From contig NC_092657.1 of assembly GCF_032118995.1 (NCBI RefSeq), positions 4,151,891 through 4,215,890 on the forward strand: a stretch of 64,000 bases of DNA, written 5' to 3'. Numbering within the stretch: the stretch's first letter is position 1; each line of letters begins with the position of its first letter. The notes beneath the pieces are model-generated. The model saw only the letters and a list, made by a program, of their open reading frames with translations. It was not told the origin of the DNA and made no database searches. This document shows, in pieces, positions 668 through 60,667 of this stretch. A program made the position numbers and the translations under genes. The DNA is from Asterias amurensis (taxonomy: Eukaryota; Echinodermata; Asteroidea; Forcipulatida; Asteriidae).

Positions 668-796
668 CACAGTGAAGTCATGTAGGATAGTCAGTCTTTC
701 TACTTCGTCTTGTTCAGGGATCTCGATTCTCTCATAGTGCTTGGCTGTGTCGACCTCAATGTCCTCATTCAAAGAATCCTGGCCTATCTGTTGACC
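668..796 (-). CDS. Gene C exon 3 (start of probable BRICHOS domain)
   Basis: Acceptor TTGTCAG, 43 codons, donor GTG|GTAAGA, phase 0 both sides. The residue pattern, acidic linker then EVD...IEIP...HDFTV, fits the N-terminal strands and the conserved Asp of BRICHOS domains. The following exon would be left of base 1. Confidence 0.65.
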
Positions 797-3700
797 CTGA
801 CAAGAACAATTATATTGAGACAAATTTATATTTAGTCTAGTAAGTTTTGAGTCTAGTAAGTTTTTAGACTAGTAAGTTTTGTGGTTACAGCCAAAGCAAA
901 GGAGTGTCAGGAGTCTTTTGGACACCATGTTTTAAACTTGCACACCCTTTTTTATCCGTCATTCATGAATACACCAGACAGTTTTGCTACTCCTATTGGT
1001 GGAGAGCGTGGCATGTGAGGGTGTTTAAATGGTTGATAATGACCAGCTGGAGCTGTTTCTAACCAGCCAGCTTCCTGGTGTCGGGCGAGCAAGCTAATGT
1101 ACGCCAATTTTATTAGGCGGAACGCAATTCATAGCTAATAGTAACAAAGCGTAATCTGTATTCTAAGTGCGAGTTCTTTGCAAACTGTTGTGCGCACTGC
1201 AGCCTAACAAAATAATGGCTGTCAGAAACTCCACACAGAACATGCCTTATATTTTCCCCAAACAATTTGTAAGCACTAAACATCAACTATTAGAGAAAAT
1301 AATGATGGAACTGGGCATGCTCACCATATTAGCATCACTCATGTCATAGTCCGGGTAGTCTTCATATGTTACACCACATCTGAAAGAGTACTGCAATAGA
1401 TTGAAGTGAATACAAATCATTAGCATTTTCAATATCTGCATATTCATGTATGGAGGTGAATACAAGGTAGATCTAGGTACATTTGCATATTCATTATTTG
1501 CATATTCATGAAATGGCAGTGAATAAAGGTACAATGAGGTAAATTTGCATTTGCATTATTTGCATCATGTATGGAGGTGAAAACAAGGTACATCTACATA
1601 AGCACTTTCATTATTTGCATTATACACATGTATGAGTACAAGATACTTAAAGATGCCGAGTCATATTTTTTTACCCAAACCTTAAAAAATAGGGTTTTTT
1701 TAGTGAATGGTTTGAGTATCACCCGCTCTAATGAAAAAAAGGTTTAACTTTTACTTTTAATGGTCAGGAACCATGATAAAAATTCAAAATGTTTCTTATA
1801 AAACACATAAGAATTTGTCACGTGATATATTTTCGGGATCCCGACAAAAACTAATTTTGAGCACTTTATTTCACTGCTACTAATAATTGGCGGACTTTCT
1901 CGAGCAATGGCTCAAATGAAAGCTTGTGACTTTCTCGACCCCCATCAAAATACCTGTTGAATTTTAAATCAAAATTTTTGGGTCAAATCGGCCAAAAATC
2001 TGACATAGCATCTCTAAGGTACGTTTACAAATGTATACATTAGCATTTTCAATATTTGAATATTGAATACCCATGAAATGGAAGTGACTACAAGGTACAC
2101 ATTTGAATTCTTATTATTTACATATTTACATATTCATGCATGGAAGTAAACACAAGGTACATTCGAGTACATTAGATCTTTTATTATTTGCATATTGTTT
2201 GCATATTCATGACATAGGAGTGAATACAATGACAATTTATGTACATTTCCATTTTCATTATTTGAATATTCATGAAATGGAAGTGAGTACAAATATGATT
2301 ATTTTTTTTTTATGCAAGTCGCCTAACACACAAGGCCTGTAGGCCACTTCAAGGTGTGGGCTACAATCAACTTTTTACCAGGGTCCGTTGCCACCTACTC
2401 CTGGGGCGGATTGCAATAAAACGGTCTTAGTCAGCGGTCTAAGACCAGTCAGTTATAGCAGGCGATCTGCCTTAGCTTAGTCAGTCATAAAGCCTGTTGC
2501 AATAAGACGGTCTTAGATAAGTCGGCGAAAAGTAATGCAATACGAACCATCGTCCCATAAGCACTTCTGCAGGCACTGGCGGTATGGCATTGTTCTTATT
2601 GCTTTGGTTTGAACCATCGGATATCCAATCTCTGAGTTGTATAATTTTTACTGTTGGGAACATATGACACTTACGATGCAAAGTATCATCATCATAATGC
2701 CTCTAATGGGTGTAATCTATTTCTAAAACACAATCTCATCGTAGAGCTCTTTGTATCAAATCATCTACAACTAACAAATGCAGCACCGTCTTTAAAACCA
2801 AAACAAAGACCGATTATAGCCAGCTCAGAGCAGGCTTAAGATTTAAGACTGGCTATAATTATAGACCGCGCTATTGCAATCGGTCTATAATTAAAGACTG
2901 TCTAAGCATGTTTCAAGTTAGCCGGCTATAGCGCATAGATTGGCTTAAGACCGCTTGGTGCAATCCGCCCCTGGGGCTGAAACAGGGTTACCCCCTTCAC
3001 AGTCCATACGGATGTAGGCTTGGGTATCATCCATCAGAAGCCTGGCTGGTAGAGCAATGAAAGCACTACCTCCCCCAAACTTTACAAAGCAATTATGGTG
3101 AAGTGTCTTGCTAACTCTTTGGTGCAAAAGGCGGTCCCTCTAGTGACCACCAAAAACACACCAAATTGAACTTTGATAACAGGTCATAACTTAATAACTA
3201 CAACACCTATATATATATACACTACCCTCTCTCGGCCGTTTAGAGCAAATGTTGAGCGTTCGTTGGATTTGATGTTCGGGCGCTATTGAAAAGTTTTGAG
3301 AAAAACAGTTTAATTTTTTTTTTCTTTGTTAAAGTTTTTAACTAATCTGCGTCACCAAAGGGATAAGGACACATGTGTCACGACTGGGACTCGAACCCAA
3401 ACTCTGCTGATCAAACACCAGAGTTTGAATCCGGTGCTCCTAACCGCTCGGCCACGACTGATCGCCACAAAAAAAATGCGCTATACGAACTACATGTAGT
3501 TTTTTAAAATTATTATTATTACAAACTCATACATGTGCCCTGTTTCTGTGTTGCCCGATAAGTAGCGCCATCTAGACCCCGAGGATCAGCACAACAATGT
3601 GGACACAAGTGTCACTGTCATGACCAGGATTCGAACCCACACACTCCGATGACTTAACCACCATGAGCTTGAATTCGCTTCTCTAAACCACCCAGCCACA

Positions 3701-6700
3701 CCCCCATTACACGTCGCACAGCTGGGTATACATGTGTACATGTACATGTATTACTATATTATACATCATAGGGATGGCCGAGTGGTTAAGGACAGTGGAC
3801 ACTATTGGTAATTGTCAAAGACCAGTCTTCTCACTTGGTGTATCTCAACATATGCATAAAATAACAAACCTGTGAAAATTTGAGCTCCATCGGTCGACGA
3901 ATTTGCGAGATAATAATGAAAGAAAAAACACCCTTGTCACACGAAGTTGTGTGCTTTCTGATGCTTGATTTTGAGACCTTAAATTCTAAACTTGAGGTCT
4001 CAAAATCAAATTTGTGGAAATTAGGCCTACTTTCTTGAAAACTACATCACTTCAGAGGGAGCCGTTTCTCACAATGTTTTATACCATCAACCTCTCCCCA
4101 TTACTCGTCACCAAGTAAGGTTTTATGGTGATAATTATTTTGAGTAATTACAAATAGTGTCCACTGCCTTTAAGGGCATCAAATTCAAGTTCTCCTGGTT
4201 AAAGTCATCAGAGTGTGGGTTCGAATCCCGGTCGTGACACTTGTGTCCTTGAGAAAGTACCTTCACTATAATTGCTTCTCTCCACCCAGGGGTATAAATG
4301 GGTACCTGCAGGGGCAGAGATGGTTCTTGTGATTGATTTAGCCGAGCGGCACTTATCCCAGGGAGCTGAGATGGTTTAAGGAATGAATTAAGGCCCATTG
4401 ACCAGGGGTAATAATGTTGGAGCGCCATGAGCGTCACTGCGTGACGGACCGGAGCGCTATATAAGAAACCATTATTATTATTATTATCTTCAAGTACGCG
4501 CTAATCCTCCAATCAGATTGGCAGAATGGAGTGGTGATAAAAACCTATATTGCACGACTAATATCACTACCATGCGTCTTGTGTGTTCTATGTCAAGATA
4601 AATACGTTATCACATGCGCGCTCGTGGAAATACGGAAAATATAGCGCGTCTGCGTCCCAAATCTAACTCGGCCTTCGGCCTCGTTGGATATGGGACGCAG
4701 AAGCGCTATATTTTTCCGTATTCCACTCTCGCTTGTGTGATAACTTATATTATTATTATCATTAGAGGTTGATATTGTGTATGAAAAAGCCTTTGGAGCG
4801 CCATGAAACCCACAGACACGCCACATGGCCAGATATTACAAAGTACTATACCCTATTTCAGTGTTGTCCCGTGAACAGCGCCATTCTGACCCCGAGGACG
4901 AGCACATTAATGTGGACACTGTCATGACCAGGATTCGAACCCACACTCCGATGACTTACATGTAACCACCAGAGCTTGAATTTGATTCTAAAAACCACTC
5001 GGCCATGATACCAAAACAGACTGGACAACGGCCTCAAAGGGTCTGGGGTCGATTTCACAAAGAGTTAGGACTAGTCCTGGGAGATATACAAATTGCATGG
5101 ATAGTCCTAAGTTAGAACGAGTAACTGGTCCTAACTCGAGATAAGACTAGTCCTAACTCTTTGTGAAATCCACCCCCCTTTTTGTAGGACACAAAACACA
5201 ATGTTAACAGATTTACATTAAACTCACACAGTTTAAAGAAGGGATGGTCGAAAGCTTTATTTAAAATAAATATGACTTGCCGAGGCGCTGTAGTTTTTGA
5301 GAAATGAGTAAAACAAGTCACGAAAATAATTTGGCGTATACATGTAAAGCGTATTTTTGTGACATTGTTTACTCGTTACTCAAAAACTACAGCACCTCAG
5401 CTAGTATTATTTTAAGGGAAGCTTTCTACTCTCATTATCTTCAAACGGTGTAAGTCTCATGTTAATCTGTGGGCATTATGTTTTGTGTTACAAAAACTAC
5501 CCAAATCCTTTAAAACCGACATTATTACAAAGTCTACATACCCTGTCTCCGTGATGTCCCATGAATAGCGCCATTCCGACACCAAGGATCAGCACAATGA
5601 CTACGACTGTCGAGACGCAGAGACACAGGCTCATGTTGGCCTTCCTCCGGATGGGGACGGCAACCACATCAGCCGGGTCCTGTTTCTGGAAAGGCTCCTC
5701 ATATGTCAACTGCAGTAAGATTGTAAAGAAAAGAAGAAAAATTTACGCAAATATACATTACTGGCCTGTATGCTTTGTTTTTGAAAGAGCAAGGGCACCG
5801 AGATATGGAAGTGTCGTGGCCCGAGCGGTTAAAAGCACCGAATTCAAACTCTGGTGTTTCTGATCAGCAGCGTGTGGGTTTGAATCCCCAGCCGTGACAC
5901 TTGTGTCCTTAAGCAAGACACTTAACCATTGCTTCGTCCTTCGGATGGGACGTAAAGCCGTTGGTCCCATGTGTTGTGTAATGCATGTAAAAGAACCCAG
6001 TGCACTTTTCGAAAAGAGAAGGGGTTCGCCCCGGTGCTCCTGGCTGTGGCTGCTGTATGCGCCGTAGCACCTTGTAAAACCTTATACGGTGCTAAATAGA
6101 TGGGTCTCAAAATTAATCACTGCTATTACCCATCTTTCTGAAAGTTTGTATATACTCAGCGCCTTGAGTACCTTGTTTGGTAGATACATACGCTATATAA
6201 GACTTTGATATTATATTATGATTATTATTATTCACTGCTTGGTTTAAGGTACCCTAGAGGAAAAGTGTAAATTTCTTCTGAAGCATTTCAAGGGCACCAA
6301 GGCAATGACTAGGGGGCATGAAGGCTGTGAAGTATCAGGGCTGTACGTATTTATAATAAGAGTAATGAGGCTTTAGTGCCGTTGTGCCAGGGAATTCTGT
6401 CAGCCGGAGATTCATTCCCCATGTAGAAATTTAACATGGGCTGGAGGAGGATATTCAACAGAGGGCACTAGCAGAAGTAGTTTTAACACAGTTCACCATA
6501 TACATGTAGGGGATAGAGTATCCTGCCACACCGCATGGACGCACCATGATAAACGTCTATTGGTTTATAGACCATATTGAATAACCACTTTTTTTTCTGT
6601 AGGTCAAACCGTATACATGCATGTCCAAACGCGTACATCAATGAAGCACGCATCACACAGCATTCCCAGTTTGATTTCTACGGCACATGCACGCACACAC

Positions 6701-9700: not shown

Positions 9701-12700
9701 GTGAATGAAATTAGCATATTTCATGGGAAGGGTCCATTAGCGAGACGCTGAAAAAAATACTAATTCCAAATGCTCATGCTGAATGATCTTCCAATTGACA
9801 CTAACGTTTGCCAACCATTGCGAGCCACTGGGGTCGCTTTTGCAAAGCAATAAAAACCATCGTAAAACAAACCGTCAGTATCACCATAGTGATTTCTATT
9901 GTGAAATCACACTTTACTAAGCAACTACGATTGATTTGCAGTTTCGATCAATCTTAGCTCTTTAAAGACACTGGACACTATTGGTTATTGTCAAAGACCA
10001 GTCTTTTCACTTGGTGTATCTCAACTCATGCATAAAATAACGAACCTGTGAACATTTGAGCTCAATTGGTCGTCGAAGTTGGGAGATAATAATGAACGAA
10101 AAAACACACTTGTCACATGAAGTTGTGTGCGTTTAGATGGTTGATTTCGAGACCTCAAATTCTAAATCTGAGGTCTTGAAATCAAATTCGTGGAAAATTA
10201 TTTCTTTCTCAAAAACTATGTCACTTCAGAGGGAGCGGTTTCTCAAAATGTTTTATACTATCAACCTCTCCCCATTACTTGTCACCAAGTAAGGTTTTAT
10301 GCCAATAATTATTTTGAGTAATTACCAATAGTGTCCACTGCCTTTAAGAAATTGGCCCCAGCTGGACACCTTTGGTAATTGTCAAAGACCAGTATTCTCA
10401 CTTGGTGTAAAGGCCTTTGTATGCATAAACTAACAAACTGTGAAAATTTTGCGATACATTGGCAAGGTTGTTTGTTAGATTTTCAGTATTTCGCTTTCTG
10501 CTTAATTTTGAAATATTTAGCAAGAATTGTAACATCATGCAGGTAAATTTCATAGCAAGTGAAAAGGAAAACGATTTTCTTGTGTCTTTGTGCACAAAAT
10601 TAGGCACAAGTACACCGCAGCAGTGATGGCGTATACCAAACTGCGTGGATATTGTTATGCAGTTTGATGCAGTAGATCATTGGACCATTTTTATTAGCAT
10701 AGATTGAAAGGGCCTATTGATTTTAAAGGTATCATGCACCTTGCAAAGGACTGGTATAGCTAGTCTAAACCAATCGGCATGATCGAGGAGTGGACGTGAC
10801 TGTGCATGTTTTATCTCGATTCAATTTAGAGCCTCGTCGCAAATGAGCAAAAATAGCTGGATTAAAGGTTGATATATGAAAGTCTAATCCCTAGAACGAA
10901 TAGCAGGCCTGACACTTCACGGAGGCAGCGAAGGCGATTATGTCAGTAAATTGGGGATTTGCCCAAACAAATACACCAAACCTCATATAGAAATCAACAT
11001 CAAATGATATGCTACAAAATAAGTGAGCTCAATCTTCAAATCATTTTTCCCAACTAGTTTATTTTCAAGCATTTATTTTCGCCAATGACTCATGTAAAAT
11101 CATTCACAGATATGTCAAAGCCAGTCATTGTAAATGTGAGAAGACTATGGATTTGCCCAAACAGATCAACCAAAACTAACTGCACTAAGCCCTATAATAA
11201 GGGGGTCTCAAATAATTCTCTCCCAAAACCATTTACATGTATTTCGGCAACTCATGTAAAATCATTCACAGATATTTCCTACGCCCAGTCCCTGTAAATG
11301 TGAGTAAATTGTGTATTGACCAAACAGATCCACTGAAATTACCTCCGTATCCCTTATGAAAATCAACCTCGCATAATAAGAAAAAAACCTCAAGGTTAAA
11401 AGCCAGGCCTCACCAGAGTGTAATTATCATACCTTACAAAACCAAGCACCCCCCCCTCTCCCAACATATTCGCAATTAAATGAGCACGCGTGACTGGAAT
11501 AAACATCTTATAGGTAGGATGGTGAGGTAATCTGATTTAATTCAAATTCTCAAGTTGTGAATAGACATAATATGAAGAGATGATAGGCCTGCATCATTGG
11601 ACTTTTGGAACCGATTATTCATTCAAATCCTCTAGTTTACAGAAATGTATCATTACATCATTGGTTATTTGTGAGCATATTCATTCCAACCCTTTAGTTT
11701 TAGAGAAACATCATAAAGGGATTGTACATTTGTGCATCATTGGTTTTTAAAGAGTGCATTCATTCCAATCCTCTAGTTTACAAGAAACATATCATAAAGG
11801 GATGGTACATCATTGGTTATTGGAAGAGTACATTCATTCCAATCCTCTAGTTTTCAAAAAACACATCATAAAGGGATGGTACATCATTGGTTATTGGAAG
11901 AGTACATTCATTCCAATCCTCTAGTTTTCAAAAAACACATCATAAAGGGATGGTACTTCATTGGTTTTTGGAAGAGTACATTCATTCCAAGCCTCTAGTT
12001 TACAAGTAACATATCATAAAGGGATGGTACATCATTGGTTTTTGGAAGAGTACATTCATTCCAATCCTCTAGTTTTCAAGAAACACATCATAAAGGGATG
12101 GTACATCATTGGTTTTTGGAAGAGTACATTCATTCCAATCCCCTAGTTTTCAAGAGACATATCATGAAGGGATGGTACATCATTGGTTTTTGGAAGAGTA
12201 CATTCATTCCAATCCTCTAGTTTTCAAAAAACATATCATAAAAGGATGGTACATCATTGTTTTTGAAAGAATACATTAATTCCAATCCTCTAGTTTTCAA
12301 GAAACACATCATAAAGGGATGGTACATCATTGGTGTTTGGAAGAGTACATTCATTCCAATCCTCTAGTTTTCAAGAAACATCATAAAGGGATGGTACATC
12401 ATTGGTTATTGGAAGAGTACATTCATTCCAATCCTCTAGTTTTCAAGAAACATCATAAAGGGATGGTATTTTTTTTAAGCATTCATTCAAATTATCTAGT
12501 TTTCGAGAAACATATCATCACAGAGGGATGGTACATGTACACCACATTGGGTTTTTTTATGCCGACATTTTGCTTTAAATTGAAAGCCAATCCTTAATTT
12601 AAAAAGAGCAAATATTCCCCATCCTCCTTTTTTCATTCAGCAACCGCTGAAAATCAGATTAGGTGGTCCTTCGAGACAAATAGAGGTTTATGTTTCGTCT

Positions 12701-15700: not shown

Positions 15701-18700
15701 GTTAAGATACACCAAGTGAGAAGGTTGGTCTTTGACAATTACCAATAGTGTCCACAGTCTTTAAACATGCTAAAACCACACTACTTTGAGATGAAATGCC
15801 TACAAATGCTTTAATTGAAAGCTTTTAACCAAAAGTATACATGTATATTGTCAATAATTTTCACATGTAATCTCAAAATGGCGGGTTGATGACGTCAATG
15901 CATTTTAAGATCCATTGAGTCCAATTTTGGGTGTGGTCCAAGTTGTACAATACATTGAACAGTTGAAAACATGACATAATGGGTACCAGGCGAATCAACT
16001 ACTGTAATGTGTTATATGCACAGTCTAAAATTCACGATACAAAACCGACTCAACAGTTGTCTGGTTTTACACAATGCTTGTACAAAACCAAACAAATAAA
16101 TTGTATTGAACACCATCATAAAATGTTATTTTAGTTTCCAGCGAAGGTTTCAATAGGTGTGTGCCTTTAGACGATGTGACCTTTGACATCATGTTGTCAA
16201 AAGAGCCACAGAGACTGAGACTTCCTGCAGGTGCATTGTAACAATACACAGCTCAATGAAAAAAAAACACATGAAATCTGATATTATCTGGAGATTGCAA
16301 TCACGTGTGATTTTTATAAACTTTTGATTTTTAGTAACCACATAGCATGAACCCGGATGTATACAACTTACATACTATTACAAAGGATGGAATTCTCATT
16401 GAACAAAAAGACATAAACATTGAATATAAGAAAACCAGGATACACCAGGGGTGGGTGGAGTCGCTGCTCACAAACAAGTCTGAAACTGGTATCCAGATCT
16501 TAGGTGTTAGGCCAAGTAAAACAAATTTGATCGTCCAAGTAAAAAAAAAAAGGGAAGATCAGGGCCTTTTTTAAAGCCATTGGACCCTTTCGGTTCAGAA
16601 AAAAAAAAAAAAGTTCACAGATTTACAAATAACTTACAGGGTTTACAGAAGGCAATGGTGAAAGACTTCTCTTGAAATATTATTCCATGAAATGCTTTAC
16701 TTTTTGAGAAAACAGCAAAACAGTATAAATTCTCGTTAACGAGAATTACGGATTTATTTTAAACACATGTCATGACACGGCGAAACGCGCGGAAACGAGG
16801 GTGGGTTTTTCCGTTGTTTTCTCCCGACTCTGATGACCGATTGAGCCTAAATTTTCACAGGTTTGTTATTTGATATAGAAGTTGTGGTACACAAAGTGTG
16901 GGCCTTGGACAACACTGTTTACCGAAAGGGTCCAATGGCTTTAATGTATAATATACAATTTTAAAATTTAATGTGTTTGTAGTTGCTGGGCACCTCTGAA
17001 ACACAGTGTTTCACTGAGAGGTTTCCCAAGGGTTAATAATAAATAAATAAATAAATAAATTGCAACTGTGAAATATTAGTTTTATATTGAAACAAAAGGT
17101 TATTTCATAGTTTTGTTTTTTAATCTCTGCAAACTTAGTTTCAACATGTCACTGATCACTGATCAGGTGACTTTCTATTTTTGGGGATGGAACTAAATTT
17201 GCAATAATGTTAAAGGCAGTGGACACTATTGGTAATTGCCAAAGACTAGCCTTCACAGTTGGTGTATCTCAACATAAGCATAAAATAACAAATCTGTGAA
17301 AATTTGAGCTCAATCGGTCATCGAACTTGCGAGATAATAATGAAAGAAAAAACACCCTTGTCACACGAAGTTGTGTGCGTTTAGAAAGTTCTAAATCTGA
17401 GGTCTCGAAATCAAATTCGTGGAAAATTACGTCTTTCTCTAAAACTATGGCACTTCAGAGGGAGCCGTTTCTCACAATGTTTTATACCATCAACCTCTCC
17501 CCATTACTCATCACCAAGTAAGGTTTATATGCCAATAATTATTTTGAGTAATTACCAATAGTGTCCACTGCCTTTAAAAAAAAAATCAAAACAAAAGTTA
17601 TATGACAAAACAACTTTTGTTTGATGATCTTTTGATGCACTGCACAAAGTACTTCCTTGTTGTACAATGATCACGAGGTTTCTGTTTTCCTTGTTTGACA
17701 AACTAGTTCCATTACTAATTATCATGGATGGGGAAATCATGTGTCATAAAATAAACAATGATGCTGCATATATAACCGAATCATTGTAATTGCTTATTCT
17801 TTTGTACGTTGCTAAAAATATTTTCTTTTATACAAGATTTTCTTTTTTAAATTCAAAGTCTCACTTCCCAAAAACCTTAAAAGAAGAAGTTTCTAGGGGA
17901 TGACACAAGATTGTTTTTCTTGAATTAAGATTGCTTTCTTATTTAAAAAAAAAATAAAAATATTTAAGTAGCGCTTTGTTTGCACCTTCCAGGGCCTTTC
18001 TGATAGGCAAGATACTACTGTAACTTCTATATAAATTTTAAGAGTTGTAAAAAACAGCTGAATAAGTTTTCAGCTGTTTTTATAACTCTTAAAGAGTAAG
18101 ACCGTGGACACTATTGGTAATTGTCAAAGACTCTAAGCCTTGACAGTTTGTGTATCTCAAAAGTATGCATAAAATAACAAACCTGTGAAAATTTGAGCTC
18201 ATCAAACTTGCGAGATCGGTCATCAAACTTGCGAGATAATAATGAAAGAAGAAAACACCCTTGTCACACGAAGTTGTGTGTGTTTAGATGGTTGATTTCG
18301 AGACCTCAAGTTCTATTAATATGAGGTCTCGAAATCAAATTCGTGGAAAATTACTTCTTTCTCGAATACTATGGCACTTCAGAGGGAGCCCGTTTCTCAC
18401 AATGTTTTATATCAACTTCTTCCCATTACTCGTCACCAAGAATGGTTTGAATATAGGGCTAGATAGCTCAGTTGGTAGAGCGCCTGCACGAATAATCTGA
18501 AGGTCGTTGGGTCGAATCTCACTCTAGTCAATTCTTTGTTCAACCCCCAAAATCACTGTCAAAAGTTGTTAAAAACCCACCAGCTTTAAATCCTTATTTA
18601 AAAAAACCCATCAGGCTACATAATGTATGCCTGCGGGAAGTCCAGGCTCTGTGGCTCTTTTGTATAGTAAAGGCCTAACTTGTCATGTACATGTACATGT

Positions 18701-26845: not shown

Positions 26846-27044
26846 AAAAAGGCCTTTTGGAGGAGCGTCTGTTGAGTTGTACGATGGAATACTGCTACTG
26901 TGGCGCTGTGATCCTCCAGCAGACTCTAGTAGTCATCCTGAGTAACGAAAGACACATAATAAATAATGATAATATTATGCATTTACATTGCGCTTAGTAC
27001 ATGGCTTCTAAGCGCTGAAACATAAAAGTAATGAAATATGGGAA

Positions 27045-36010: not shown

Positions 36011-36048
36011 TTACGGACGCCCATCCGGGTAATGATGCCCCTCGTTCC
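36011..36048 (-). CDS. Gene E exon 4 (terminal)
   Basis: Acceptor ATGTACAG after a T-rich tract. The joined codon plus NEGHHYPDGRP and TAA. Phase fits exon 3. Confidence 0.62.
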
Positions 36049-43760: not shown

Positions 43761-43831
43761 TCAATGAACCATCCGTGGCTGAACTCTAGAAGGCGCTCTA
43801 ATATGCTGGTGGAGCGGGGGAGGTGGACCTC
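43761..43831 (-). CDS. Gene B exon 4 (terminal)
   Basis: Acceptor TTGTAATTTAG after a T-rich tract, phase 1, GPPPPLHQHIRAPSRVQPRM-type end, TGA stop at 43763-43761. Confidence 0.62.
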
Positions 43832-44350: not shown

Positions 44351-47300
44351 CATCTGGTTACAACACTGGCAACTACTCACCGTCGTGATGACCACCGTCG
44401 TGGTCACCGCCTCGTCGACCACCATCATGGTCGCCATCATGGCCGCCACTATGGCCGCCACTATGGCCGCCATCATGGCCGCCACTATGGCCGCCACTAT
44501 GGCCGCCACTATGGCCGCCACTATGGCCGCCATCTTGGCCGTGGCCATCCCGATCCATATCGCCGTCTGGGTGGTGCCGACCGTCACGCTGGTCGTCGGG
44601 GCTCATGCCGAAATCGTGGTCTCCGTCAAAGCCGTCAGCCCAGTCGCTACCGTGCAACTTGTCAATTAACCCACCATCATCAATACGCTGCTGTGAAGCA
44701 AAATAATGGTAAGTTCTGTTAGTTGAGACCAACAGACCTGTTAGTTGAGACTAACAGAACTGAACTAAAAAAAATTCAAACTCTGTTCTGAAAAGGTTGC
44801 GGGTTCCAATCATAGAGCTATATGCTCTATAGTTCGAGTCAATTTGACTCCCATAAATGGCCGACCGTGTTTGTCGAAGAGGTAAAAAGAAAACCACGCA
44901 ATTTCGAGTGATACTTGTGTGGATCATTATGTTCTATTTTTAAAATATCTTTCTAATCATTTGCATTTTATAACAAACGGTTACAGACGCTTTTCAAAGA
45001 CCAACTCGACCGATCCAAGGCAACGTGTTTCTTTAACGACTCAACGATTCAATCAGTAGGCCCAATTTCATAAAGCTGCTTAAGCACAAAATTTTGCTTA
45101 AGCGAAAAAATCCTTGCTTTTTAATAGTAAAATCAGATTCCCTGCCAAGACTCCACTCAATTCTTAAGCTTATAGTAAACAACAGCTAAATATCAGTCAC
45201 AAGCAATGTATATGCCATGAAATGTTGGCCAGTAACATGTGTAAAATAAGCAAGCTATTTTCGTGCTTAAGCAAAAATTTTCTTAAGCAGCTCTATGAAA
45301 TTGGCCCCTGGTCGTCTTCAGGAGAATTCTGGACTCTTTTGCTGGATGCTGCTTATAAGTATTTGACTCAATGTTCGTCTAGTTCCTTAAAGACACTGGA
45401 CACTATTGGTAATTGTCAAAGACCAGTCTCATCACTTGGTGTATCTAAACATATGCATAACATAACAAACCTGTGAAAATTTGAGCTCAATTGGTCGTCA
45501 AAGTTGCGAGATATGAATGAAATAAAAAACACCCTTGTCACACGAAGTTGTGTGCTTTCAGATGCTTGATTTCGAGACCTCAAATTCTAAATCTGAGGTC
45601 TCGAAATCAAATTCCTGGAAAATTACTTCTTTCTCGAAATCTACTTCACTTCAGAGGGAGACGTTTCTCACAATGTTTTATACTATAAACCTCTCCCCAT
45701 TACTCGTTACCACGGGGGTTTCATGATGCTAGCTATTTTGAGTAATTACCAATAGTGTCCACTGCCTTTAATCACAATTCTTGATTTGTGCAATTCATTA
45801 TCATAGACGTTAATGGCACTGGACACCTTTGATTGTCAAAGACCATGCAGTCTTCTCACTTGGTGTATCTCAACATTATTGTCTGCATAAAAATAACAAA
45901 CCTGTGAAATTTACGAGCTCAATATTGGTCGTCGAAGTTGTGAGAGAATAATGGAGGAAAAAACAACATTGTCGCACAAGTTGTGTGCTTTCAGCTGAGG
46001 TCTCTAATTCAACTCAAGTATTTTTGTGGAAAATGACTTCGTTTCTTTCTCAAAAACTACGTTACTTCAGAGGGAGCTGTTTCTCACAATGTTTTACACT
46101 ATCAACAGCTCTCCGTTGCTCGTCACCAAGTAAGTATTTACGCTAACAATAATCTTGAGTTACTACCAGTAGTGTTCCCAAAAAATATACATCTGAAATG
46201 TGATCAATGCTTCAATTACTTACCCTGGTGCCACAACCGTAACGGCGATACAAGCGAAAACCCACAAGGCAACCAAGGATTGCCAGAGTACCAACGAAAC
46301 ACAAGACAACCACTGAGATCTTGACTCGCCTAGTGCAGCATGATGACTTGGCTCTGGGTGGTGCCGTCTGCTGTGAAAAAAAAGACGGTGCAGTATTTTA
46401 CTAAAACTGTTGGATAATAACCGTTTTCATGCAAAAATTAGCTAATGGCTTGACGTTTCGACCCTAGCAGAGTCTTTTTAGAAGTGTGTTAAATACCAAA
46501 TTATAAACCAAACAGAAACACTTTTGTTCACCAGAAATTGTTTTTTTAAATATCATTTTCCTCGTTCACGGTATTGAATACGTCATACAGAAAACGGGTT
46601 CCTAGAACATTTTTAAAAATTAACAATAGGCCTAAAGATATATAAAAAATAATACAAATAAATTATTAAAAACTTTAAGGTCTATAGATAGATTTCGTTG
46701 ATATCACAGAAAACCCAAACATTTGGCCATGGACACGACTCAAATTAATTTCTATATTTATTTAGTAGGTCTAGTTGAAGATTTTTAGGAATGATATTTC
46801 GGCCAGTGGAAAGAAGCAAGAAAAACATCCCACTTCAAAGCGTCCCACTTCAACTCAGAAAAGCAGATACTTGTTCCAAATTCAAAAATCATCTCAAAAC
46901 ATATCTATTTCGGAAACAATAGCCTCCAAACTTTTGGTTGTCTTGTGTCATTGTGTATTAGCAGAGTTCTTGTTTTTTGCACCAGGAGTGTCATCATTGA
47001 CAGACGTGGCGCACTAGATTAATGTTCAACATTATTATTATTATTATTACTTATTATATTGGGAACAGGGGCTGAACTATTCATGACAGTTTTTTTCTGT
47101 GGGCAGAAAACAATCAGACTAAAGTAGGAAAAATATGGAAAAATTAAATTTAAAACAAGAAATTGTTTATAATTATACTCAAATGAGATAAACCTTTTGG
47201 TAAAAATCTGAGAAAACTGGCTGTGTAACGAAAATCCAGACTATTTGTTGTCATGGATGACCAATACACGTAGGCCTTATATATTTTATAAGGATTTATA

Positions 47301-47906
47301 TGTACACTATTTTACTGTGGGCAGAAACCAAAATCAGAAATCAGACTAAAACAGAACAAATATCTTGCCTGTATATTAACATGTTAGTAACTTGTGTTAA
47401 AAATGGAGTAAGAAGAACAACTCGGGAGAAAATGTCCGTATCCTGTCACTTTTTATAAAAATATAAATTAGTTTCTAATTTACTCAAGAATGACGAGATA
47501 TTCCTATCGGTAAAATGAGTGATGGCGGTTGCATTTGATATATATATTAGGCCTGTATACATGGTTAAGGCTTTAGGACATAATTAAACGCTGATCAAGC
47601 TATTTAATAACAATTTTCCACATAATTTCTGAGGACAGAACCAAACAAAATCAGAAACTAAAGTAGGGTGAATATTACAGCATTTTAAAAATTGCTTTAA
47701 AAATGACTTTGCAATTAAAATGGACTCGGTAAGAAATAACACCTAGCTATCTTCATAATAAAAAAAACAATAATAATATACATTATAAATCCACACTTTC
47801 ACTGCTTCACACTTACCGGTAGAACAACAACAGTGCTCGGAGCTTCTGCGACCGGTTTCTGGTCTAGATGGTCCTTAGGATTATCTGATACTTTTAACTG
47901 CACCAT
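43761..47906 (-). CDS. Gene B: single-pass membrane protein with a (HSGG)n His/Asp/Gly tail
   Basis: Four exons: 47906-47817, 46370-46224, 44690-44381, 43831-43761; 205 residues. N-terminus MVQLKVSDNPKD ... STVVVLP, then TAPPRAKSSCCTRR (a Cys pair just before the membrane, a possible palmitoylation site) and one helix (about VKISVVVLCFVGTLAILGCL) ending FRLYRRYGCG. Exon 3 encodes 103 residues that become a run of HSGG and HDGG units, with RDGRHHPDGDMDRDGHGQDG before them and DHDGGHHDG after. The tail ends in PPPP and a basic C-terminus. Such a tail could bind divalent metals (inference). Closest sister is gene D over exons 1-2. Promoter signals lie at 48041-48133. Phases 0-0-1. I know no named family. 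Confidence 0.7.
44236..44351 (+). mobile_element. SINE 3' tail
   Basis: TCTCAGCGCCTTGAGTACC, CGCTATATACAAGACTTTG and an (ATT)n run, identical in layout to the end of the 5807 SINE. It ends 30 bases from the donor of gene B exon 3. Confidence 0.8.
44381..44690 (-). CDS. Gene B exon 3 ((HSGG)n repeat exon)
   Basis: Acceptor TTCACAG|CAG, 103 codons plus one base, donor G|GTGAGT, phase 1. A 12-base DNA unit (GGCCATAGTGGC register) repeats about eight times, encoding HSGG/HDGG tetrads, so length is likely variable between individuals. Confidence 0.75.
44838..45325. repeat. Half MITE-B, hammerhead-like motif and a palindromic MITE inserted in it
   Basis: 44838-45036 is the right half of a MITE-B. 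CGACTCAACGATTCAATCAG (45037-45056) and GTCGTCTTCAGGAG (45311-45324) are the two halves of the motif seen whole at 50259-50303. A GGCCCAATTTCATA...GAAATTGGCCCC palindrome sits between them. Confidence 0.7.
45387..45771. mobile_element. MITE-A copy
   Basis: Complete and TTAA-bounded, in intron 2 of gene B. An older, worn relative follows at 45810-46175. Confidence 0.88.
46224..46370 (-). CDS. Gene B exon 2 (transmembrane exon)
   Basis: Acceptor TTCACAG|CAG, a tandem CAG that could shift by one codon; 49 codons; AGG|GTAAGT donor. Confidence 0.75.
47817..47906 (-). CDS. Gene B exon 1
   Basis: ATG at 47906, 30 codons, CCG|GTAAGT donor, phase 0. Shares MVQL, DNPK and STVVVL with gene D. Confidence 0.75.
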
Positions 47907-51734: not shown

Positions 51735-51990
51735 TAGCACCATGTCATGGTTTACAAGTAGCCCTATATAGGACTCTTCCTCTGTACACATTAAGAAAGT
51801 GTAAGGCCGCCATGGCTAGGTTAACAAGGTGCTTTGGCGCAATTTACAGCCAATCAAACCAGGAACACCAGGGCAAACCCCTTCTCTTTTCGACAAGTGA
51901 ACCGGGTTATTTTACGTGCGTTAGACAACACACGGGACCAACGGCTTGACGTCCCCTTCGAAGGGCGAATCATTATGGTTAAGTGTCTTG
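51735..51990 (-). mobile_element. SINE body, minus strand, 5' part missing
   Basis: TTCTCTTTTCGACAAGTGAA, GGGACCAACGGCTTGACGTC and GGTTAAGTGTCTTGCTTA are the reverse of the 5807 SINE body. The tRNA head is absent. Confidence 0.7.
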
Positions 51991-53205: not shown

Positions 53206-53370
53206 TAATCCTACACGAAGAAACATACAACACTAAACAGCCGTTCGTGATTAAGTAACAAATCTTTCTTTTTTAACAGTTATCAAATCTCATATAAAAA
53301 TAACATGCTACATGAAACAGCCGTTTGTGATGACGTTAATAACAAAGTACATGTAACAGTCGTTGGTATT

Positions 53371-53423
53371 TTATTCTACATAGTCGACTATCTGGGTTAT
53401 CTCTGGCGGAACAACGATGATTC
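53371..53423 (-). CDS. Gene D exon 4 (terminal)
   Basis: A very strong acceptor (TTTTTTCTTTTTCCAG), phase 1, 16 codons and TAA. An AATAAA overlaps the stop codon (GAATAAAATACC), a possible poly(A) signal though very close. Confidence 0.65.
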
Positions 53424-56400
53424 CTGGAAAAAGAAAAAAAACAAAAAACAATCAATAAATTAATTTGCTTTTTGTTGAATGATGTATTCATAAATTATTC
53501 ATACGTCATAGCTAATGACCCTTGACCTGTTAAGTTTATGAAAATACATGTCCCAACATAGTGACGTCCAGTTAAAGCCATTGGACCCTTTCGGTACAGA
53601 CAAAAACAAATAAAAGTTCACAGATTTACAAATAATTTACAGGGTTTACAGAAGGTAATGGTGAAAGACTTCTCTTGAAATATTACCATGAAATGCTTTA
53701 ATTTTGAGAAAACAGTAAAACAGTAAAACAGAACTACGGATAGATATTAAAAAACACATGTCATGACACGGCGAAACGCGCGGAAACAAGAGTAGGTTTT
53801 CCCGTTATTTTCTCCCGACTCCGATGACCGATTGAGCCTAAATTTTCACAGGTTTGTTGTTTTATATGTAAGTTGTGATACACGAAGTGTGGGCCTTGGG
53901 CAATACTGTTTATCGGAAGTGTATAATGGCTTTAAAGCCATTATTCGGAACAGACATTTTTGTTTTATTCACACAGATTTACAAATAACTTACAGGGTTT
54001 ACAGAAGGTAATGGTGAAAGACTTCTCTTGAAATATTATTCCATGAAATGCTTTACTTTTTGAGAAAACATTAAAACAATATCAATTCGCGATATCGAGA
54101 ATTACAGATTTTGTTTAAACACATGTCATGACACGGCGAAACGTGCGGAAACAAATGTGGGTTTTCCCGTTATTTTCTCCCGACTCCGATGACTGGTTGA
54201 GCCTAATTTTTCACAGGTTTGTTATTTTATATTATAAGTTGTGATAGACGAAGTGTGGGCCTTGGGCAATACTGTTTACCGAAAGTGTCCAATGGCTTTA
54301 GGTGTTTTTTCCCCAATTCAATTAGGTGTATTATTTACATCTCAAACAATATGCCTAAACAACAGAAGTTGACAAGACTTAAATTTACGTGTTTACATTG
54401 TTAACAGGTTCAACGTGTGTCTTTGTCTTTGTCCAGACATGCTTCATCAAACGGAGTAAAAGTCAAACCAATTATTACTAAAGTTTTCTCGTTTATTCTG
54501 ATCAAAAATTATTTTGTTATGGAAAAAATATCTTTGTTAAAAACAACAACTTAGATAAGTTCAATTACCAAATGGGAACCGTTTGTATTGCTTTGTACTA
54601 TAGATGCCATGCTTTTCATAAAATTTCCTGTTTTTGTCATTTGCCAATTCTTATTTCGTATCGTTCTAAAAGATGTTGGTTTTACCAGTAGTTTGTGTAG
54701 CTTTGTACATTAAAAGTAACTTGAAAAAAAATTCCTCCGCCAATGGAAAAAAACAAATGGGGGAAAAAATATAAAAAAATGTTATGTTACTACAGATTTC
54801 GGGGCACACTGCGCAAATGACAATCCTACTGGTAATGATGAAAATCATGCCGGCAGTGGACACGTTTGATAATATTGTCAAAGACCAAGGGGCCAAATCA
54901 CAAAAGCAATACAACTCATCACAAGACAAAATTGTCAGTATCGCCATAGTAATTTGTATTGTGACATCACACTTTACTTAGCAACTAAGATTGATTTGCA
55001 GTTACAATCGATCTTAGATCAGCCCCTGGACACATTAGGTGCATGTGTCAAAGACCATGCAGTCTTCTCACTTGGTGTATCTCAACATATGAATAAAATA
55101 ACAAACCTGTAAAAAATTTGAGCCCAATTGGTCGTCGAAGTTGCAAGGGACTAATGAATGAAAGTTTTGAGTTCGATTTTTGTTTGTTTGGTTTTGTATT
55201 TCCAAATATCACAAATTAATAATCATAATAACAATCAAGCATTACGTTACTTCAGAGGGAGCTGTTTCTCACAATGTTTTGTTCGTTTAGCTTCCCTGGT
55301 CGACCGTGGGTGCTCACTTGGGTGAGCCCCTGACAAGAGCTAATCGAACAATCACACTCGCCCTCTCGTGGTGACGTCATGCACCTCGGGTCACCCCCAA
55401 GTGACCCACTCCACAAGCAGGGCACTGGGAGCTGACTCGGGTGAGCCCCTGGAAGGCTGTCAAAGCTATTTGAACGCATCGGGGCAGACCGGGAATGACC
55501 CAGGGAAGCTAAACGAACGCACCCAATGTGCGCTCTCAATTGCTCGTTACTAATAATTTTGTATGCTAACAATAATTTCACATGGCTTTCTTGTTTAGGA
55601 GATTCCCAGTTAAATTCGACGTACATTTGTATACGTATAAAGCCAACTTGCGGATAAGGACAGTGAACCAGTTTAACATTAAGTAGGATTTGAAACTTTG
55701 CATGGTCGAAATACGAAATGGAAAGGTTTGCGGAAAAGCTTTCTCCAGAAGAGGAAGAGAGCATAGACCTATACTGATCGAAACGTCGAGTTGAAACCAA
55801 CGGTTCTCAGTGAACGATTTCCCTTGTATAGCAGTTGCTATTAAAAAAAGATGCACTTGCTACTCTATTACCATTCAGTGCCTACAAATTTGTTCACCGT
55901 CAAAATATTTTGCTATGCAAAAATGTCGTTTCATGGTGTTACCATTTCATTTCTATACAGTCTACCATTTACACACCTAAAGGTTGTCCGGGTACGTGCT
56001 CGCCGCTGGGGTCAACTTGTTGACCTCCCGCTTCATCAAGGGGGACGCCATCTTGCCATTCCCCTTCATACTCATGTCCGCCATCTTGCCACTCCCCGTT
56101 CATGATGTTTTCAATAATAGTCACGCTTGATCCAGACGAACTATAATCAGATGATTGAATGACGACGTCATCATGATTCCACACTGAGAAATCACTCTGT
56201 CAGATCAAACGAAAAAAATATAAATTAGTAATCACAGAATCACACTTTTTATACACTGAAGAATAAGTAGCCGACATCTTGGATTGAATTTCGTAAGCTT
56301 CAAAGGACCTCTCAAAAATGGGAGACTTTGGAACGCTAGGTGGCAGCAGACTTACCAGGTAAATTTCCATTGTTTACGTAGTTCTGAGCATGCGCACTTA

Positions 56401-59400
56401 ACCGAGAACGATGGATTTTACCTGGTAAGTCTGCTGCCACCAAGCGTCCCAAAAGTCTCTCATTGGAAGGCTATTTCCTGCGCAACCTAAATGCCACACC
56501 CTTCACAAAGTGAGCTCATCCAAGCATGAATTATTTACAGACTTCTTGGTGTCATATGAAAGTCGAGTCCATAAGCTATCCATACATCTAAAACTTCCCC
56601 CAGAATCCTATACTTTTTATTCGGGGCAGCCATTTCAAAAGTGTATTTTTTGAGACACCCTGTAGTGTCCAGTGCTTGTATATATTACTCTAGTCTTGGT
56701 GCAAGACCTTTCTCGTTTCCCTTTCACGTACACCGGTGAGTCGGTGCGGGCGCTGTCGGTGAATTGGCTGCGGTGTGCGTGAAAGGGAAACGAGAAACCT
56801 CTTGCACCAAGACTAGTATTACTCACGTCATAAACGATGTCGTCAGATAAGTCGATGTAGTAAGGTTCGCACGGTCCCCAGTACGTGAGACATGAATCAC
56901 GGCGGACGTAGAGGGCCAGCAGGACACAAGCGATCGTTATGGCCAACAGGACACACGTCACAGATATGCAAATGATGACACGCCTCGTGCAACATGACTT
57001 TTTGGCCGTTGGTGGCGCTGTTGACTGCGGAGATATAAAGATAAAGGGTATGATACCTTTAAGATGAATTTTATTTTAGCCATGATATGAATTCCTACTC
57101 ATGAAGATGCATGGAAAATAAGCCTATAGAAGTTTCATCTTCATTAGTCGTCAAGTTTTTAAGGAAAAGAAAGGTGAAAATCACAGCGAAATTGTTTACA
57201 GGAGTCGCATAAATCCGTTGTACATGCTGAAATATAAATTTTCGTTTCACACGTAAAACTTTTGTGAAATTGTACATTTCTCAAAAACTGCAACACCTCA
57301 GCAAGTAATATTTTAAGGTAAGCTGTTTACTTTCATGATCTTCAAATGGTGTAAGTTTAATGTAAATCTGGGGACATTGTGTGTTGTGTTACAAAAAGTA
57401 GGCCTACCCAAATCATTTAGAGGTAAAAAATACGGTTTACTTGTTAAAGGAACACGTTGCCTTGGATCGGACGAGTTGGTCTATAAAAAGCGTTTGAAAC
57501 CGTTTGTTATGAAATGCATATGGTTAGAAAGATGTTTTAAAAGTAGAATATAATGATCCACGCAAGTATCACTCAAAATTGCACGGTTTACTTTTTACGT
57601 CGGGAACTATCACCGTCGGCCATTTATGGGAGTCAAAATTTTGACTCCCATAAATGGCCGACCGTGTTATTGGACGAGGTAAAAAGAAAACCACGCAATT
57701 TCGAGGCATATTTGTGTAGATCATTGTAATCTACTTTTACAACATCTTTCGAACCATATGCATTTTATAACAAACGGTTACAAAACGTTTTTCAAAGACC
57801 AACTCGACCGATCCAAGGCAACGTGTTCCTTTAAACTAATGCCGATAACGTAGAGAATAATTGGATACAAACATTAGGCAGACCAACTGTCGATAAAAAC
57901 TCTTCAAAACCCGAAATTTCTTCATTGTCTTCTTTAACAAAAGTTGTCTTTGACATTACCTAAAGTATACAATGCTTTTAAATATATATTTGTTTGAATA
58001 ACCCCCATTTCACACGACAGTGAATTTAGAAACCACTGAGTCAACCGACTACCTTTTAGCTTTCAAGGGAGGAAAGGAAGTCAGGTTGACTCAGCGGTTT
58101 CTGTCCCTGCCGTTCACCTCCGGGACCCTAAACTTGACCCAAGTCCCAATCTCGTAAGAGTCCTTTTATTTCCAGTCACATTGCCTAACGTCGGGAAACT
58201 TGGCCGATGTGGCAGGAGATTCGGTGTCCCCCTCCCCCCCCCGTCCACTCCCATGGCGAACTATGTACAAACTTCTTCTGATAGCGCCCTCTTTTGACCC
58301 ACGTTAATTTCCCATTATGGGGGACCGAATCTCCGGTGTCGCATGCAATTATGTCCTCTATGCAATACTATCCGGAGGACATTATTGCATATGCAATAAT
58401 GTCCGCCGGACGGTTTTGCATACGCAATCGTGTCCGCCCGGACGCTGCTGCATAATGCAATTGTGTCCGCCCGGACATAATTTGCAAATGCAGTTGTGTC
58501 CGCCCCCGTGCAAATCCGTCCTTGCAGTAAATTATTAAACGCCCTCGGTCGACGGAACAAGTTCGCCTTTGCTTTTACAAGTGCATGTCATGAATGACAT
58601 TGGAAATGTTCGGCCGTTGTGTATTCGCTGCAATCATAAAATACGTGAATATTCATGCTGCATATGCGTAGGTTCAGTGCATGCACGCTCTCTTACGCGC
58701 GCACATTGGGGGGGGGGGGGTGATACAGTCATGCACATGTCCGCCGGACGGTTTTTGCATAGCCCCGGACACAATTGCATGTGCGAAAGTGTCCGCATGC
58801 CGCAGGTTCTCGGGACCACTATAGGCTAGCTACATTTTTGTTTTCCTATTTGGCGCCGAAACCTCCCGAACGAGAACGGGACTTGAATCAAGTCTATGTG
58901 GACGACCGAAGCCTTTTGCGGCTGGACTTGTTTTTTCAGGTACCAACTGCGTGGGTTCTTTTCCCTATTATTGGGTATTTCCTGTGTGACACAAATTGTG
59001 CTTATATGCTCTATGCATATATGCAAAACTTTTTCTTGAAAATGGAGTGGAAATCTACCCTTCTTCTTGAAATAGCTCTGGGCTTGGATGCAGAGCATCC
59101 CCATGAAATCATGGTGAAACTCACGGAGGAAACGTTAAATTGCCTGTCTCCGACACCCCAAACTCTTCCTAACTTAAAGGCAGTGGACACTATTGGTAAA
59201 TGTCAAAGACTAGCCTTCACAGTTGGTGTATCTCAACATATGCATAAAATAACAAACCTGTGAAAATCTGAGCTCAATCGGTCATCGAACTTGCGAGATA
59301 ATAATGAAAGAAAAAAGCAACCTTGTCACACGAAGTTGTGTGCGTTTAGATGGTTGATTTCGAGACCTCAAGTTCTAAATCTGAGGTCTCGAAATCAAAT

Positions 59401-60667
59401 TCGTGGAAAATTACTTCTTTCTCGTAAAACTATGGCACTTCAGAGGGAGCCGTTTCTCACAATGTTTTATACCGTCAACCTCTCCCCATTACTCGTCACC
59501 AAGAAAGGTTGTATGCTAATAAATATTTTGAGTAATTACCAATAGTGTCCACTGCCTTTAAATAGCTCTGGGCTTGGATGCAGAGCATCCCCATGAGATC
59601 ATGGTGAAACTCACGGAGGAAACGTTAAATTGCCTGTCTTCGACACCCCAAACTCTTCCTAACTTTAGGATTATTTTAGGACTTATGACGAGTTAATTTC
59701 CGTATGTTAGGACGCATTGAACCCATCCTAACTCGAGATAGGGTTAGTCCAAACGTTTCGTGAAAACCGGCTGCTGGGTACTCTTTGGTGAAGAAGTTAA
59801 TGAAGTTGCAATTCCCTTTACGGTATGGTGAAAGAGAAATTACAATTCCCGTAATGCATGGTGAAAGAAAAGTAGCTCCTCAAAATTCGGCAAAATCTTG
59901 CACTGAAATTTCAGGGTTTCACAGCAAAGATAAAAAACCAATACCTAAGTTAAGTCTAGAATATTTGTGAACACCATGCAGGAACATTTTCTAGGCCTAA
60001 ATGCTAAATTAGAAACATCCATGGGCTTAGTCATATGTTTTGTATAGTTGCACCCCTCTGTGACGTCACTCACATAGAGTCTAATGCTGTCTTAGTTAAA
60101 TATTGTACCTTTACTATCTCACTGTTCTTGTTAAAGGGAAGGTACACCTTTGGTAATTACTCAAAATCAATATTAACTTAAAAACTTACAAGGGTGTTTT
60201 CTCGCAACTTCGATGTCCAATTTAGCTCAAAAATGTCCAAAGGCTTGTTATTTTATGCTTATGATGGGATACATCAAGTGAGAAGACTGGTCATTGACAA
60301 TTACCAAACGTGTACCTTTCCTTTAATGTTTATGTAATAGTCCAGTTTGTGTTGTTTTTCTAGGCATATCTACCACAAGCTGGGCTTAAAAGTTGTGGCT
60401 TTTCTGGTTATGTCCCCATTTCAAAGTCTCAATCAGTCTTTACCGATTTTTTTAAAACATTTTTTAGCATCCAAACAGTGTAGGCGCATATAATTATAAA
60501 ACAATGTTATTTTTATTCCTCTTGGAATGGAAATAAACGTCTATAAAATAAAATGAAATACTGAGAAAAGGTGAACTCACCTGCAAGACGACAACTGTGC
60601 TATCAACGGGAGGAGGCAGTTTCAACGCCTTCTCTTTCGGATTATCTGTCACCCCTAATTGAACCAT
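53371..60667 (-). CDS. Gene D: single-pass membrane protein with an acidic tail
   Basis: Four exons: 60667-60581, 57024-56827, 56196-55977, 53423-53371; 185 residues. N-terminus MVQLGVTDNPKEKALKLPPP ... STVVVLQ, then TAPPTAKKSCCTRR with the same Cys pair as gene B, one helix (VIICISVTCVLLAITIACVL) and VRRDSCLTYWGPCEPYY. The two Cys around WGP match gene A. Exon 3 is acidic and holds two GEWQDG units (NGEWQDGGHEY, EGEWQDGVPL). Exon 4 gives IIVVPPEITQIVDYVE and stops. Unlike A and B the tail is poor in His. Phases 0-0-1. If exon 3 were read on, a TAA stop would follow its donor within two codons, so a form ending there is possible. TATA box at 60848-60841. Function unknown. Confidence 0.7.
53572..54300. 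mobile_element. Two abutting MITE-C copies
   Basis: 53572-53935 and 53932-54300 lie head to tail in the same orientation and share one TTAA. Both are in the last intron of gene D. Confidence 0.85.
54880..55025. repeat. Palindromic MITE (9276 family)
   Basis: AAGACAAAATTGTCAGTATC, GCCATAGTAATTTGTATTGT and GATTGATTTGCAGTTACAAT; third copy of the element in the 9.3 and 9.8 kb duplications. Confidence 0.65.
55025..55590. repeat. Old MITE-A relative split by the GC-rich palindromic element
   Basis: MITE-A-like sequence up to CACAATGTTTTG at 55281. The GC-rich element follows at 55283-55530 (GTTTAGCTTCCCTGG ... GGAAGCTAAACGAACGC), then more MITE-A-like sequence. Confidence 0.7.
55977..56196 (-). 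CDS. Gene D exon 3 (GEWQDG repeat exon)
   Basis: Acceptor TCTGACAG, 73 codons plus one base, donor G|GTGTGT, phase 1. The donor is weaker than those of the paralogs. Confidence 0.65.
56318..56460. repeat. Palindromic MITE in gene D intron 2
   Basis: GGTGGCAGCAGACTTACCAG and its exact complement form the core of arms of about 45 bases. Confidence 0.8.
56691..56815. repeat. Palindromic MITE in gene D intron 2, near the donor
   Basis: CTAGTCTTGGTGCAAGA and CTCGTTTCCCTTTCACG on the left are mirrored on the right. It ends 12 bases from exon 2. Confidence 0.8.
56827..57024 (-). CDS. Gene D exon 2 (transmembrane exon)
   Basis: Acceptor TCTCCGCAG, 66 codons, GAC|GTGAGT donor, phase 0. A palindromic MITE (56691-56815) begins 12 bases inside the following intron. 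Confidence 0.75.
57265..57834. mobile_element. MITE-D fragment followed by a complete MITE-B
   Basis: 57265-57420 matches half of MITE-D. 57444-57834 is a TTAA-bounded MITE-B palindrome. Confidence 0.8.
58355..58800. repeat. GTCCGCCCGGAC / TGCAAT short-period repeat
   Basis: TGCAAT-N-TGTCCGCC(C/G)GGAC recurs about five times at 30-35 base spacing between 58355 and 58520, and again at 58735-58800. Ordinary DNA with a GGGGGGGGGGGG run lies between. Confidence 0.75.
59066..59175. repeat. Direct duplication flanking a MITE-A, left copy
   Basis: Begins ATAGCTCTGGGCTTGGATGC and ends CAAACTCTTCCTAAC. Matches 59562-59668 with only about two differences. Confidence 0.9.
59174..59561. mobile_element. 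MITE-A copy between direct duplications
   Basis: Complete and TTAA-bounded; see the flanking duplication entries. Confidence 0.9.
59562..59668. repeat. Direct duplication flanking a MITE-A, right copy
   Basis: Continues past the shared part into TTTAGGATTATTTTAGG, a 5047-family palindromic MITE (to about 59770). Confidence 0.9.
60131..60325. mobile_element. Shortened MITE-A relative
   Basis: TTAAAGGGAAGGTACACCTT start and GTGTACCTTTCCTTTAA end; the middle is deleted relative to 27730-28110. Confidence 0.8.
60581..60667 (-). CDS. Gene D exon 1
   Basis: ATG at 60667, 29 codons, CAG|GTGAGT donor, phase 0. Half of its residues equal those of gene B exon 1. Confidence 0.75.

Follow-up and report, generated by a model that had tools for sequence, protein, structure and literature searches.

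We examined a 64,000-nucleotide window of the Asterias amurensis genome (contig NC_092657.1, here C10, positions 4151891-4215890) and identified at least six single-pass membrane-protein genes in and beside it, arranged in tandem on the minus strand in the order F, B, D, A, E, C. Exon 1 starts at 60667 in gene B, 47906 in D, 38693 in A, 33337 in E and 20867 in C. Gene F lies outside the window, just upstream, with its exon 1 at 69686 in window-relative numbers, which refer to flanking DNA wherever they fall outside 1-64,000. We class gene C as a new ITM2-like BRICHOS member; the other five genes share its N-terminal unit only and are not classed as BRICHOS proteins. An earlier note had described this stretch as a tandem cluster of five genes between 668 and 60667. 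The cluster and its single-pass layout are borne out, but the count of five is not, and these two limits are exactly where gene C exon 4 ends and where gene B exon 1 starts. The genes are laid out as follows.

Gene F, window-relative 65383-69686, minus strand: four exons and a stop, 184 amino acids (aa), with a His-Gly-Gly repeat tail.
Gene B exon 1, 60581-60667, minus strand: predicted cytosolic, MV...STVVVLQ, phase 0, donor CAG/GTGAGT (a slash marks the exon border).
Gene B exon 2, 56827-57024, minus strand: membrane helix, external Cys at +9 and +16, phase 0.
Gene B exon 3, 55977-56196, minus strand: acidic ectodomain with little His, phase 1; first of 2 candidate exons.
Gene B exon 4, 53371-53423, minus strand: stop; model of 185 aa.
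Gene D exon 1, 47817-47906, minus strand: MV...STVVVLP, phase 0.
Gene D exon 2, 46224-46370, minus strand: membrane helix, external Cys at +8, phase 0.
Gene D exon 3, 44381-44690, minus strand: ectodomain rich in His, Asp and Gly, with HSGG/HDGG repeats, phase 1.
Tandem repeat of a 12-bp unit, 44427-44541: inside gene D exon 3.
Gene D exon 4, 43761-43831, minus strand: stop; model of 205 aa.
Gene A exon 1, 38628-38693, minus strand: MV...FEMLIP, phase 0.
Gene A exon 2, 37605-37781, minus strand: membrane helix, external Cys at +11, phase 0.
Gene A exon 3, 36725-36776, minus strand: short His/Asp tail, phase 1.
Gene A exon 4, 36011-36048, minus strand: stop; model of 110 aa.
Gene E exon 1, 33242-33337, minus strand: MVK...CSVVEIP, phase 0.
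Gene E exon 2, 31826-32011, minus strand: membrane helix, external Cys at +9 and +16, phase 0.
Gene E exon 3, 30383-30587, minus strand: ectodomain rich in His, Asp, Ser and Glu, phase 1.
Gene E exon 4, 29732-29790, minus strand: phase 0.
Gene E exon 5, 26926-26937, minus strand: DDY and stop, the least certain exon; model of 185 aa.
Gene C exon 1, 20775-20867, minus strand: MVK...AAFAVIP, phase 0.
Gene C exon 2, 5542-5709, minus strand: membrane helix, phase 0.
Gene C exon 3, 1325-1390, minus strand: membrane-proximal Cys at +13, phase 0.
Gene C exon 4, 668-796, minus strand: linker and start of BRICHOS, ends LHDFTV, phase 0.
Gene C exons 5 and 6, window-relative -583 to -687 and -1159 to -1411, minus strand: outside the window.

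We chose the splice sites by hand and then set them down in a script. The models of F, B, D and A have four exons and that of E has five, and each of these frames ends in a stop. With gene C included, the 27 exons contain zero internal stops and have GT/AG at every border. Each exon 1 begins with MV and closes with a hydrophobic run followed by P or Q at a phase-0 donor; the membrane exon comes next and also ends in phase 0. The MV start, the membrane exon and the two phase-0 borders had been noted earlier and were confirmed, as was phase 1 after exon 3 in B, D, A and E; with F included, the intron phases after exons 1-3 are 0, 0, 1 in all five small genes. The five exon-1 end motifs noted earlier are all present and all on the minus strand, but as a common motif they are loose. 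Gene C is cut by the window edge and runs to at least 271 residues with its outside exons, which contradicts the claim that no gene of the cluster exceeds 210 residues.

The third exons of the small genes were chosen from few candidates. We applied generic splice rules, into which two rare donor forms from F and B had been written, to the stretch from each exon 2 to the following gene. They left one candidate in F, two in B, three in D, two in A and two in E. The chosen exon was top by His, Asp, Gly and Glu content in 4/5 genes and in D came second to its own 3-nucleotide-shifted acceptor. Judged from these sequence features, the coding structure of the models is very probably correct. Some members could instead be decayed or non-expressed copies, or exon chains could have been misread – a reading that fits the three residues coded by E exon 5, the 29-residue tail of A and the derivation of the models from sequence alone – but the intact frames, the uniform splice borders and the scarcity of alternative third exons make it very unlikely.

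The local scans covered 124 kilobases (kb) around the cluster. A scan for exon 1 returned six matches, all on the minus strand and none on the plus strand. In 100 first-order Markov sequences the same scan averaged 0.16 matches per strand and never exceeded 1, and 90 kb of a control contig, C12, gave none on either strand. Both scan patterns were written with five genes already in view; the sixth exon 1, which revealed gene F, was new. The counts relative to both controls indicate that the cluster exceeds chance. A scan for phase-0 membrane exons gave eight rows representing six distinct exons (two rows were alternative acceptors), and these were exactly the six genes' own; the same scan gave 0 on the plus strand, 0 on both strands of C12 and 0 in 30 Markov sequences.

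We also searched the whole genome (491,506,623 bases on 23 contigs). An initial pattern search recovered nothing, and searches with five of the six genes as queries (B, C, F, D and E) found no further convincing member – in a procedure that ranks best candidates only and ignores introns, so that diverged members could escape. A match on C20 to exons 1-2 of D (E 0.0495, 36% identity, one stop) had raised the idea of a retrocopy, which we dropped as unconvincing. The only cross-match between cluster genes in these searches was B with D, at 47% identity in exon 2 (E 2.0e-4 and 3.8e-4).

Gene C is almost certainly an ITM2-type BRICHOS gene. Its exons 4-6 alone match BRICHOS (PF04089) at 38.7 bits (E 1.2e-9; Pfam cut-off 25), and a longer model that included a later rejected exon matched at 35.5 bits against the same cut-off. 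The nearest solved structure is ITM2B (8rnu, E 0.0013); that query carried the later rejected repeat stretch, and the BRICHOS result rests on the exon 4-6 query. The cluster had been called an unnamed family; with ITM2B as the nearest solved relative of its BRICHOS protein, the shared membrane unit has a probable name. ITM2 proteins start with MVK, as gene C does. Gene C has a single hydrophobic segment (helix 59-79; best other 19-residue average 1.01), and on our models the D, C and C of BRICHOS are spaced 16 residues from D to C and 60 from C to C, close to the 16 and 59 given by the ITM2A numbering in PMC2751770. Exon 6 ends in RRRR at a GAG/GTAAGC donor in phase 1; this basic stretch is a candidate for the convertase site that ITM2 proteins have near the C-terminus.

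One candidate for a seventh exon of gene C, at window-relative -10920, was phase-compatible and ended in LVIC. The query stretch recurs at six further places with 87-96% identity, and related places fall within open frames that reach 983 aa; we therefore regard it as a dispersed repeat and rejected it. This repeat spans -10920 to -11075 on the minus strand and has copies on contigs C1, C2, C10, C13, C16 and C18; the related places that fall within open frames are on C10, C3 and C4. When the N-terminal part of gene C was compared with PDB, only SEC24 and a methyltransferase matched, at E 0.9 or worse, which we attribute to chance.

A second BRICHOS gene was identified on contig C12. The whole-genome search with the BRICHOS family did not report gene C – short exons embedded in repeats are easily overlooked – and returned two sub-threshold places (E 2.3 and 5.5), one on C12 and one on C19. 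On closer study the C12 place turned out to hold a BRICHOS gene (35.4 bits; about 17608300-17618000, plus strand). It reads DFYN/EVTVYLD where gene C reads DFTV/NMTAYRL: the intron has the same position and the same phase 0 in both, four residues from the invariant D. The next donor is in phase 0 in both genes, but two residues apart. Searches of the surroundings of the C12 gene did not find its exon 1 or last exons. A genome search with the BRICHOS part of gene C did not report the C12 gene, which implies that the two are well diverged. Hedlund et al. 2009 describe a BRICHOS 'divergent group' (echinoderm, amphioxus) and a 'group A', with echinoderm proteins branching near ITM2 (PMC2751770); matched by description only, either of the two BRICHOS genes, C or the one on C12, may be a member of one of these.

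All six genes share the layout of the N-terminal unit. Each has one helix, preceded by 3-5 Lys or Arg within 15 residues (6/6 genes), and a Cys predicted to be external follows it at +9 in F, +9 in B, +8 in D, +11 in A, +9 in E and +13 in C (6/6). Judged by one helix, phase-0 exons 1 and 2 and a membrane-proximal Cys, the unit is present in B, D, A, E and F. To compare the genes, exon-1 interiors were shuffled 2000 times with the MV and the last residue fixed. The interiors of F, B, D and E each beat all 2000 shuffles against the other four small genes, gene A gave p 0.0245, and gene C against the five gave p 0.0125. These results give good support to F, B, D and E being one family, with A tied more weakly, and make descent from an ITM2-like gene likely rather than established. 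We consider common ancestry of gene C with the five small genes probable, from what their exons have in common. The earlier note had inferred a young family under diversifying pressure. Youth is not supported by the identity to gene C of only 15-26% in exons 1-2 of the four small genes B, D, E and A, nor by the 47% identity of B and D in exon 2. The pressure is unsupported as well: in a comparison confined to a single species, the tails differ in the way of low-complexity acidic repeats, and such a difference does not point to positive selection.

The small genes end differently. Queries with the BRICHOS of gene C and of ITM2B found nothing better than E 0.69 in the 124 kb outside gene C (the membrane exon of gene F also surfaced in this search). 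B, D, A, E and F each reach their own stop after 4-5 exons, and on these grounds, with no Pfam family above cut-off either, they fall outside BRICHOS membership. Pfam matches to THBD, SelP_N and MHYT were all under the cut-off and were rejected. In place of BRICHOS, each small gene carries a tail formed by one phase-1 exon and one or two short exons, 29-126 residues long and acidic in all five (net charge -13 in F, -18 in B, -13 in D, -4 in A and -18 in E). The tails are rich in His, Asp and Gly in 4/5 genes, B being the other, and His makes up 20% of the tail in F, 16% in D, 14% in A and 14% in E. When 30-residue stretches in all frames on both strands of the 124 kb were ranked by His, Asp and Gly content, F, D and E came first to third, and the fourth and fifth stretches were antisense of F and D.

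Clusters of His and acidic residues are established binders of divalent metals, and the charge of His shifts near pH 6-7. For these reasons our best single guess is that the flexible anionic tails would capture or buffer divalent metals (Zn, Cu, Ni or Ca), with binding that depends on pH, either on the cell surface or inside secretory vesicles. That metal binding is their main role is suggested by composition, and we hold it tentatively, at somewhat less than an even chance. The tails might instead be precursors of shed Gly/His-rich antimicrobial peptides, anchored in the membrane until cleavage. The His/Gly repeats of F and D recall Gly/His-rich antifungal peptides of insects. BRICHOS also belongs to antimicrobial peptide precursors of polychaetes, as PMC10608444 describes. 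We nevertheless judge this improbable: the tails have net charges of -4 to -18, unlike most such peptides, and inspection by eye, with no cleavage predictor run, showed no conserved cleavage site between helix and tail.

Taken together, we lean toward an explanation in which an ITM2-like membrane unit was duplicated in tandem and five copies bear a probably metal-binding tail in place of BRICHOS. The unit would combine a short exon 1 encoding the cytosolic part (MV...hydrophobic-P) with a membrane exon and with a cysteine just outside the membrane, and would have phase-0 introns after its first two exons. Gene C would still carry the ectodomain of the ancestor: the BRICHOS chaperone domain and, after it, the basic RRRR site. 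Anchored by a signal-anchor helix, the proteins would sit with the N-terminus inside and the C-terminus outside, in the plasma membrane or the secretory pathway. By analogy with BRI2, whose homodimer is held by an intermolecular disulphide at Cys89 (PMC4578630 and PMC5824958), the position of the external cysteine suggests that they may pair through it.

Several observations weigh against this explanation. Gene C has only the N-terminal unit in common with the others, its third exon ends in phase 0 versus 1 in the other five, and its exon 1 is only modestly similar to those of the five small genes (p 0.0125); single pairs with gene C gave p 0.03-0.31, B-C being the worst. Aligning exons 1-2 of five sequences left three invariant columns only. 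Within the small genes, the F-A pair gave p 0.56, so that A is weakly tied, and D has 5 Lys or Arg before and 5 after its helix (15 residues on each side), so that its orientation rests on analogy rather than charge. Pfam scans of B, E, F, D and A gave no family above cut-off, and the tail of B contains only 3% His. ITM2 proper has two conserved cysteines in the C-terminal region, and for gene C a further search for a last exon gave no convincing candidate. A human ITM2B fragment found only the C12 place in the genome (E 0.78), not gene C, and in a local search it reached gene C exon 5 only at E 0.61.

The first of these points – the unit alone in common, the modest exon-1 likeness and the differing exon-3 phase – would be expected if the five small genes were a separate membrane-protein family that merely lies beside gene C, with the MV start, the phase-0 exons and the helix convergent or generic. 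We think this unlikely, in view of the single run in one orientation, the same two phase-0 introns, the external Cys in 6/6 genes and the exon-1 motif occurring 6 times on one strand versus 0 on the other in 124 kb. The phase-0 end of exon 2 in 6/6 genes and the phase-0 start of gene C exon 3 also permit another arrangement, in which the upstream exon 1-2 pairs serve as alternative first exons spliced onto the BRICHOS exons of gene C. This is highly improbable as a full account, as the small genes all come with a third exon of their own and with a last exon whose stop closes the frame. A more elaborate version of tandem duplication is a long shot: BRICHOS would have been exchanged for acidic metal-binding exons in five copies, and the phase-0 junction would let upstream anchors splice onto C, or the products heterodimerise with C, to give combinatorial surface dimers.

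Among known systems, the closest is ITM2/BRI (ITM2A, ITM2B/BRI2, ITM2C). Gene C resembles these proteins in its single-pass form, in a BRICHOS with D and two C at ITM2 spacing, in the membrane-proximal Cys and in a basic site predicted near the C-terminus, but it is divergent, as its ITM2B match of E 0.0013 indicates. The five small genes resemble them in the N-terminal unit, the helix and the external Cys, and differ in having no detected BRICHOS and an acidic, mostly His-rich tail instead. The available parts of PMC2751770 make no mention of BRICHOS-less relatives alongside the Hedlund et al. groups. Among the literature hits listed, none dealt, by its title or the opening of its abstract, with ITM2 relatives that lack BRICHOS or with echinoderm clusters of His-rich membrane proteins, which does not prove that such work is absent from print. 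Polychaete antimicrobial precursors of the arenicin type are alike in joining the BRICHOS family to differing C-terminal cargo (PMC10608444), but they keep BRICHOS and carry a beta-hairpin cargo, whereas in the small genes here BRICHOS was not found and the tail is acidic.

The beetle Gly/His-rich antifungal peptides tenecin-3 and holotricin-3 share the His-Gly-Gly texture of the F and D tails, and we claim no homology; they are secreted as free peptides and have no membrane anchor. In humans, ITM2/BRI proteins are important in familial dementias, and to our knowledge little is known of their role in other animals. If our explanation is correct, paralogues with the membrane unit and cysteine but without BRICHOS would separate the anchor role from the chaperone role, and would show that an intron-bounded ectodomain is replaceable by low-complexity sequence.

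Further features were observed in and near the window. Intron 2 of gene C contains a decayed copy of the second half of its exon 2 (4861-5064, minus strand; E 0.014, 60% over 20 residues), and another decayed copy of this exon half was seen by eye in the same intron, at about 3540-3600 on the minus strand. A 74-bp tandem repeat (11735-12468, 10 copies, 93% matches) lies in gene C intron 1, and a short element with inverted ends, also seen by eye, lies right after gene C exon 6, at window-relative -1480 to -1760 (approximate) on the minus strand. A tRNA-Leu (CAA) was called by ARAGORN at 3375-3458 on the minus strand but not by the Rfam search, and an Rfam tRNA match of 34.1 bits at 18457-18530 on the plus strand was not called by ARAGORN. 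By eye, an inverted repeat occupies the start of gene B intron 2, from 56827 to about 56690 on the minus strand. Interspersed repeat families common to the regions of all five window genes are found in introns throughout the window.

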